64,000 nt of DNA from the NCBI GenBank assembly GCA_943789425.1, contig CALSUB010000009.1, forward strand, positions 1 through 64,000, read 5' to 3'. The translations under genes and the position numbers were made by a program. Of this stretch, positions 28,493-31,626 are shown in pieces (position 1 is the stretch's first letter; the number at the start of each line of letters is the position of its first letter). The stretch comes from an uncultured Luminiphilus sp. (GTDB lineage: Bacteria > Pseudomonadota > Gammaproteobacteria > Pseudomonadales > Halieaceae). The notes beneath the pieces are model-generated. The model ran no database searches and was not told the DNA's origin. It saw nothing but the letters and a program-made list of their open reading frames with translations.

Positions 28493-28531
28493 CCGCCAAA
28501 ACTGGTGCAAGCCTCGCACTAACTTGGTGCA
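28493..28531. promoter_or_regulatory. Putative tandem NtrC-binding sites (one near-consensus, one half-site)
   Basis: cGCACTAACTTGGTGCA at 28515-28531 vs consensus TGCACCAnnnTGGTGCA; TGGTGCA half-site at 28503-28509, 22 bp upstream. Confidence 0.6.
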
Positions 28532-28618
28532 CGCTGGCCATGCCGAATGGGTTGTAGGTCTTCACGCCAGGACCCCTAAATGGCATTAACTAATTGAAAA
28601 TATTAAATAAAAATAAAT

Positions 28619-28634
28619 TGGCTCGATTGTCGCT
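28619..28634 (+). promoter_or_regulatory. Putative sigma54 (-24/-12) promoter
   Basis: TGGCTCGATTGTCGCT vs TGGCACGnnnnTTGCW; GG and GC exactly 10 nt apart. Confidence 0.7.
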
Positions 28635-28728
28635 AAGTCCTAATCGGGGGCACCGGGTCCAATCACCTTGGTCCACGGGCTATTAACAGATCGACACGCA
28701 ACGCTTCTACCCACTCAGGAGATACGAG

Positions 28729-29454
28729 ATGAAATTAGTTAAGTATGCAGTTCCCGCACTGGCACTCGCCGGTAGTTTAAGTTTCACCGCCCCCTTGGCA
28801 CAGGCCGCTGAAGTCAGTGGCAATGTGGCGTTGGTGACTGATTATAAATTCCGCGGTATTTCGCAGTCAGACAGTAAGCCGTCCGTTCAGGGCGGGTTCG
28901 ATATCGCCTTTGACTCCGGCTTTTATCTCGGCACATGGGGCGCGGCGGTCGACTTTGATTGCGCAATCGATACTTGTGGCGGGGCAAACGGGGGCCTAGA
29001 GCTCGATTACTACGGCGGCTACTCGCACAGCTTCGACGGTGGCTTTGGCGTAGATGTGGGCTACATCTACTACGACTACCCCCAGGACGAAGGCGTCCTA
29101 GGTGATTATGAGGAAGTCTATCTCAACGTGAGTTTCGGAGGCTTCTCCGCCGGCGTTGCTTTCTCAGACGAGTATTGGTTCGAAACGGGTGAGATCGTCT
29201 ACACCAAAGCGGGTTACGACATGACCCTGCCCGGTGACTGGGGGCTCAGTTTCTTGGTGGGGCAGGTCGATTACGACGTGGCCAGCTATGTTGAAACCGA
29301 TAAGCATGTCCATTGGTTAGTGGGTTTGAGTAAGTCTTGGCAGGGCATCGACTGGAGCCTGACCTACGAGGATACCGATATCGACGACAACGAGTGCTAC
29401 GGCTACGACTGGTGCGATGCAGCCCTCATTTTCGGAATGGCCAAGAGCCTATAA
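28729..29454 (+). CDS. TorF family putative porin (TIGR02001-like)
   Basis: Signal peptide; VTDYKFRGISQSDSKPSVQGGFDIAFDSGFYLGTWG. Confidence 0.9.
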   Translation: MKLVKYAVPALALAGSLSFTAPLAQAAEVSGNVALVTDYKFRGISQSDSKPSVQGGFDIAFDSGFYLGTWGAAVDFDCAIDTCGGANGGLELDYYGGYSHSFDGGFGVDVGYIYYDYPQDEGVLGDYEEVYLNVSFGGFSAGVAFSDEYWFETGEIVYTKAGYDMTLPGDWGLSFLVGQVDYDVASYVETDKHVHWLVGLSKSWQGIDWSLTYEDTDIDDNECYGYDWCDAALIFGMAKSL

Positions 29455-29835
<381 letters not shown>

Positions 29836-29859: not shown

Positions 29860-31097
29860 ATGGAAAACGAAATTTTTCAGTTGCAGTACGCGCTGGACAC
29901 GTTCTACTTTCTCGTGTGTGGCGCCCTGGTCATGTGGATGGCTGCCGGCTTTGCCATGCTCGAGGCAGGATTAGTTCGCAGTAAAAACACGGTCGAAATT
30001 CTGACCAAAAATGTCGCGTTGTTTGCGGTCGCCAGCATCATGTACATGGTGTGTGGTTACAGCATCATGTACGGCGGGGATGTCTTGCTGAGCACGATCA
30101 CGGGCTCCGGGGTCGTTGAAGGCGGAGACTCTGCCAGTTATGCCCCTTCGGCAGACTTCTTTTTTCAGGTGGTCTTTGTTGCCACCGCGATGTCCATCGT
30201 GTCGGGTGCCGTCGCTGAACGGATGAAGCTATTCGCCTTTTTAGCTTTCGCTGTCGTGATGACCGGCTTCATTTATCCTCTGGAAGGCAGTTGGACCTGG
30301 GGCGGTAATCCTGTTTTTGGACTGTATACCTTGGGTGACTTAGGTTTCCTAGACTTTGCGGGAAGCGGTATTGTTCACATGTCCGGCGCTGCCGCTGCAC
30401 TGGCAGGCGTCATCTTAGTGGGTGCTCGCAAAGGGAAGTACGGTCCGAACGGTGAAGTCAACGCGATTCCCGGCGCCAACTTGCCCTTAGCGACGTTGGG
30501 CACGTTTATCCTCTGGTTGGGCTGGTTTGGCTTCAACGGTGGCTCAGTACTGGCGACTGCGTCGGTTGATAGCGCCAACGCGGTTGCGGTGGTCTTTATG
30601 AACACTAATCTCGCGGCGGCAGGAGGGTGTATTGCGGCGCTGCTGGTGGCGAGGACGTTGTTTGGCAAAGCCGATTTAACCATGGCACTTAACGGGTGCT
30701 TAGCGGGACTAGTGGCGATCACTGCAGGTCCTGATACCCCCTCTGCATTACAGGCCACTATTTTTGGTGCCGTAGGCGGTGCATTAGTAGTCTTTTCAAT
30801 CACCACACTGGATAAGTTGAAGATTGACGATCCGGTTGGGGGCAATATCGGTCCACGGCGTCGTTGGTTTGCTGGGTCTGCTGCTGGTCCCATTGACTAA
30901 TGATGGCGCAAGTTTTTCCGGTCAAATCATTGGCGCACTGACTATTTTCGGTTGGGTGTTTGGTGCCTCCCTAGTGGCTTTCTTGGTGATCAAGCTAGTG
31001 ATGGGACTCCGCGTTTCGGAAGAAGAGGAGTACGAAGGCTCCGATCTTGAGCGAGTGCGGCATGGAGGCCTATCCAGAGTTTGCTGGCAACCGATGA
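29860..31097 (+). pseudogene. amtB: Ammonium transporter AmtB, two apparent +1 frameshifts
   Basis: MENEIFQLQYALDTFYFLVCGALVMWMAAGFAMLEAGLVRSKN; removing one G of the 30838 run gives DDPVGAISVHGVVG; removing one G near 31050 gives DLSECGMEAYPEFAGNR*. Confidence 0.9.
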
Positions 31098-31122: not shown

Positions 31123-31146
31123 GGGCTCTTCGGAGCCCTTTTTTTT
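31123..31146 (+). terminator. Rho-independent terminator after amtB
   Basis: GGGCTC-TTCG-GAGCCC followed by eight T. Confidence 0.9.
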
Positions 31147-31278
31147 GTCCCTTTATTGACCTTTTGACCCGGCTTTCTTGCCTCTGCTGTCAGCCACTCT
31201 AGGGTTGAGCAGCTTATTCCGGTCCTTAGGCATTGCGAAAACTGCTAGGGGCTTCATAATATCTGCTCTCCTAACTGA

Positions 31279-31626
<348 letters not shown>

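Follow-up and report, generated by a model that had tools for sequence, protein, structure and literature searches.

Gene Organization at the Porin-glnK-amtB Locus

In an uncultured marine bacterium of the genus Luminiphilus, the gene for a TorF-family porin lies immediately ahead of glnK and amtB, which raises the question of whether this predicted outer-membrane protein is part of the response to nitrogen limitation and, if so, through which promoter. We analyzed a 64-kb stretch of DNA (the window), which is part of an 18-contig MAG assembly (Luminiphilus, Halieaceae). The nearest named relatives of the porin were found in Gammaproteobacteria MAGs and uncultured Luminiphilus of the family Halieaceae. 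To the left of the porin gene lie a divergent yifB and a ubiK-like gene, and to the right the order on the plus strand is porin, glnK, amtB and a second PII gene. The porin gene (28729-29454, 241 aa) is preceded by a Shine-Dalgarno sequence AGGAGA at 28717-28722. The glnK gene (29497-29835) encodes a PII protein of 112 aa (PF00543; NF007946 above the cut-off) and amtB (29860 to about 31093) an ammonium transporter of the marine subtype TIGR03644. The amtB frame is broken by two single-base insertions, one in a G run at 30838-30842 and one at about 31045-31048 near CTTG. In the near-identical relatives G004 and G012 amtB is one intact frame of 416 aa, and the break in the MAG is probably an assembly or sequencing error. 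A terminator-like hairpin with T8 behind amtB (31123-31138, plus strand) is the probable end of the operon. The second PII gene (glnK2/glnB-like, 31288-31626) is located behind this terminator and has no sigma-54 or NtrC sites of its own; a weak sigma-70-like site lies ahead of it at 31233-31260, and it apparently has its own non-sigma-54 promoter. The glnK-amtB-glnK2 spacing recurs in other Luminiphilus.

The porin scored 168.9 bits against TIGR02001 (cut-off 47.15) and also matched PF09694 (Gcw_chp). A signal-peptide-like segment at the N-terminus is followed by a predicted beta-barrel, and the AlphaFold2 model (pLDDT 89) predicts an outer-membrane barrel of 12 strands. Foldseek returned general porins and, by size, the monomeric 12-strand proteins KdgM and NanC. 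The latter are of similar size and gave TM-scores of 0.53-0.56 by query and 0.61-0.75 by target, whereas their sequence identity to the porin is about 7-10%; the likeness is one of predicted fold and size and is no pointer to a sugar-acid substrate. A PDB sequence search with the TorF profile gave no match. Literature searches for TorF or Gcw_chp with nitrogen, or for TIGR02001, returned nothing relevant, and the literature found establishes neither substrate nor physiology for the TorF family.

A Putative NtrC-Dependent Sigma-54 Promoter Upstream of the Porin Gene

The region upstream of the porin gene contains a sigma-54-type -24/-12 element, TGGCTCGATTGTCGCT (28619-28634, plus strand), with two mismatches to TGGCACGN4TTGCW. 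Its GG (28620-28621) and GC (28632-28633) are separated by 10 nt, and its -12 variant TCGCT also occurs in the E. coli glnA promoter (TTGGCACAGATTTCGCT). Upstream lies an NtrC-like dyad, CGCACTAACTTGGTGCA (28515-28531, plus strand), the candidate main enhancer site, which agrees with 12 of 13 consensus positions and has a single mismatch to TGCACYN4TGGTGCA. The dyad centre is about 110 bp from the -12 element, and the dyad thus falls within the 80-200 bp upstream of a -24/-12 element by which members of the NtrC regulon are recognized. An auxiliary half-site, TGGTGCA (28503-28509, plus strand), is located at a distance of 22 bp from the dyad's own TGGTGCA arm and is kept in the closest relatives as TGGTGCA or TGGTGCG. 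No sigma-70-like site was seen upstream of the porin on the plus strand, and transcription is predicted to start near 28645. The initial annotation had proposed this -24/-12 element with exact 10-nt spacing, a near-perfect dyad about 100 bp upstream and a half-site two helical turns away; coordinates, letters and spacing of the element were right, and both NtrC-like sites were found again as described.

Between the putative enhancer and the promoter we found an IHF-like site, TTTCAATTAGTTA (28587-28599, minus strand), which had been missed in the initial annotation and matches eight of the nine positions of WATCAAN4TTR. On its own, the match in the window is not significant (P 0.18). Among the glnK-linked named loci, the best IHF match occurred at an offset of -32/-33 on the minus strand in about 21 of 43, against about 0.5 expected from uniform placement, and several of these loci carry perfect matches (AATCAACACGTTA, AATCAATGAGTTA, and AATCAACGACTTA). 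The genome encodes both ihfA and ihfB.

Conservation of the Promoter Sites

The main evidence for the porin promoter sites is their conservation as read from the sequences. Near relatives keep the -24/-12 element and the dyad while flanking bases vary (TGGCTCGATTGTCGCT, TGGCCCACTCGTCGCT, TGGCGCGCCACTCGCA, and TGGCTCGACCCTCGCT); in L018 the better dyad is TGCGCACCATTGTGGTGCG. For the locus search we used a narrower TorF alignment, the broad one having proved too diverse. In 47 of 80 named loci glnK directly follows the TorF gene, and this pairing recurs across families; glnK-adjacent TorF genes of other families have sites closer to the consensus, and their dyads precede the -12 element by 86-125 bp. 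Applying thresholds of ≥ 17 for the sigma-54 score and ≥ 10/13 for NtrC, which are our own consensus scores rather than those of a trained matrix, both sites were present at 38 of the 47 glnK-linked loci vs. 4 of 27 unlinked ones (Fisher P = 3e-8, a value that is indicative only because the loci are phylogenetically related). Seven of the 47 linked loci fell below the sigma-54 threshold.

TorF genes also occur away from glnK. Several Luminiphilus loci (L022-L029, L031, and L034) carry a second, more distant TorF type that does not adjoin glnK; in several cases a terminator of its own comes after the gene. These genes have strong sigma-54 sites of their own, most of them with NtrC-like dyads, and in the unlinked Luminiphilus group an IHF-like element is often found at -20 on the opposite strand. 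Six loci of Rheinheimera, Alishewanella and Arsukibacterium (L102, L103, L110, L112, L113, and L116), likewise unlinked to glnK, share a conserved TGGCAT/TGGCAC-N5-CTTGGA-like element, with GG in place of GC at -12, about 50-70 bp before the start; a dyad of the NtrC-like type lies about 85 bp upstream.

Porin-Less Loci and the Porin-glnK Junction

Three Luminiphilus loci (L144-L146) lack the porin; in these the NtrC/sigma-54 region, comprising a dyad, the auxiliary half-site and a sigma-54-like site, lies directly before glnK. This arrangement fits the reading that the promoter belongs to glnK-amtB and that the porin is a passenger without a role of its own under nitrogen limitation, which we consider unlikely. 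The glnK leader of L145 matches the 3′ end of the porin gene at 21 of 23 bases (0 of 1000 shuffles), which suggests that the porin was lost in L145 rather than gained in the lineage of the window; in L144 and L146 only weak remnants are seen. The recurrence of the TorF-glnK pairing across families also speaks against a passenger, as do the Luminiphilus TorF paralogues located away from glnK with their own sigma-54 sites and, mostly, NtrC-like dyads. These observations speak for nitrogen control having been retained for the porin and not for glnK-amtB alone.

The 42 nt between the porin stop and the glnK start contain a terminator-like hairpin that had escaped the initial annotation (GCCGCGC-GGGTA-GCGCGGC, 29462-29480, plus strand); it has a 7-bp GC stem, is followed by T6 at 29481-29486 and directly precedes the glnK ribosome-binding site. 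Co-transcription of porin and glnK is not certain because of this hairpin. Its stem persists, with altered sequence, in the closest relatives (L010-L012), and similar hairpins occur in L144-L145, where the porin is missing; the Luminiphilus subclade L013-L018 has no hairpin at this position. If the GC stem and T6 formed a full terminator, the promoter would drive the porin alone and glnK-amtB would be transcribed otherwise. We regard this as quite improbable: no second sigma-54/NtrC site is present before glnK, the spacer is short, the gene order in L013-L018 is retained without the hairpin, and the corresponding Herbaspirillum seropedicae operon was reported as apparently co-transcribed (PMC3023670). 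The hairpin with its T run (29462-29486) could set the ratio of porin to GlnK or act as a leader attenuator.

Regulatory Genes and the glnA Promoter of the Same Genome

In this genome ntrB and ntrC adjoin glnA. The deduced NtrC shares 65% identity with E. coli NtrC over its length, scores above the TIGR01818 cut-off and has the C-terminal segment GWGRNTLTRKLKEL in common with the E. coli protein; its DNA-binding helix is conserved. The glnA promoter carries TTGGCATAAGCTTTGCA and two NtrC dyads in the same layout as at the porin gene, and the motif is therefore used elsewhere in the genome. Sigma-54 is encoded as well, with both AID and DBD found. The rpoN gene is split into two frames by a frameshift (G000:C11:28854-30255; L001 and L002); as it is a single long frame in G004 and G006, the break in the MAG is probably a sequence error.

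Four sigma-54 activators are encoded, so that a genuine sigma-54 promoter might be driven by an enhancer-binding protein other than NtrC. This is very unlikely, as the remaining three are a PspF-like protein, a LuxO-like protein and an unassigned response regulator, and the dyad upstream of the porin fits the NtrC motif that is present at the genome's own glnA and in E. coli.

Frequency of Sigma-54 and NtrC Sites in the Window

We estimated how often such sites would be expected by chance. The window contains 12 -24/-12-like matches with at most two mismatches vs. 13.9 expected, i.e., no enrichment, and a lone match of this type was therefore rejected as proof. NtrC dyads were in slight excess only (6 vs. 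3.84 expected). Dyads with one mismatch occurred at only seven places in the whole assembly, two of which are at the ntrBC/glnA locus. A pair, defined as a sigma-54 score of ≥ 17.4 and an NtrC score of ≥ 11/13 with the dyad 50-200 bp upstream, was found once in the 64 kb, at the porin gene, whereas 0.07 were expected from shuffles. The scan for both sites that the initial annotation had suggested thus singles out the paired sites, while lone -24/-12 matches stay at chance level. A reading in which the sites are chance matches and an ordinary promoter serves the porin fits this frequency of single matches, and is extremely improbable in view of the rarity of the pair and of the deep conservation at the matching positions. 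The enhancer layout named in the initial annotation is borne out by the uniqueness of the pair in the window and its conservation in relatives.

Proposed Mechanism

Taken as a whole, the region upstream of the porin gene is very probably an NtrC-activated, IHF-assisted sigma-54 promoter that drives porin-glnK-amtB. Under nitrogen limitation, NtrB would phosphorylate NtrC, which would bind the dyad at 28515-28531, aided by the half-site at 28503-28509. IHF would bend the AT-rich DNA at 28587-28599, and the bend would bring NtrC hexamers into contact with sigma-54 RNA polymerase poised at 28619-28634. From a start near 28645, transcription would cover the porin gene first, and read-through of the terminator-like hairpin, which would be leaky, would give glnK and amtB; the porin would probably be made in excess over the downstream products. 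With one promoter for all three genes, ammonium sensing, ammonium transport and an outer-membrane pore would therefore be induced together. The initial annotation had predicted that the porin belongs to the nitrogen-limitation response, which finds support in footprinting across relatives, the NtrBC, sigma-54 and IHF genes, the glnA layout and the nlmA-glnK-amtB operon of H. seropedicae.

Comparison with Known glnK-amtB Operons

In H. seropedicae, nlmA-glnK-amtB (orf1-glnK-amtB) is induced under nitrogen limitation in an NtrC-dependent manner; an amtB fusion was induced 21-fold, and NlmA was present in membrane extracts of nitrogen-limited cells (PMC3023670). The orf1-glnK-amtB operon was also the subject of Noindorf et al. 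(2006), as cited in PMC3023670. With this operon published, the Luminiphilus arrangement belongs to a known kind: in both organisms an envelope-protein gene is located immediately ahead of glnK-amtB, with NtrC control in Luminiphilus deduced from the sites described above. Unlike H. seropedicae, a Betaproteobacterium, Luminiphilus has a second PII gene after amtB and a conserved IHF-like site. NlmA is likely a TorF protein. A short motif from a published primer was considered as an argument for this identity, and was set aside as too weak; the H. seropedicae glnK primer pattern had no match in the genome contigs searched. The E. coli glnA and glnK-amtB promoters have the same NtrC motif and -24/-12 element, but the E. 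coli glnK-amtB operon contains no porin gene. To this the present comparison adds how widely the TorF association occurs in Gammaproteobacteria, together with a phased IHF-like site.

Because TorF genes are repeatedly found under putative nitrogen-starvation promoters, with or without adjacent glnK-amtB, nitrogen scavenging is the first hypothesis for TorF function, and marine bacteria, which are often nitrogen-limited, provide a setting for it. Tentatively, and with somewhat less than even confidence, we propose that the glnK-amtB-linked TorF is a dedicated outer-membrane entry for scarce nitrogen compounds. In many Pseudomonadota, the GlnK-AmtB module would then include this porin as a conserved third component. 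A phased NtrC-IHF-sigma-54 promoter would control it, and in some lineages the intercistronic hairpin would tune it against GlnK. The fixed geometry of NtrC, IHF and sigma-54 sites can guide the prediction of promoters of this type in uncultured relatives.

Further TorF loci differ in their surroundings. TorF genes on Cupriavidus plasmids showed no linkage to glnK, and a Burkholderiales MAG (L141) has TorF-glnK-amtB with a -24/-12 element. On plasmid pTB101 of Aquabacterium olei (L172), TorF is followed by an ammonium transporter gene with no glnK, and a divergently oriented gene for a sigma-54-dependent regulator adjoins.
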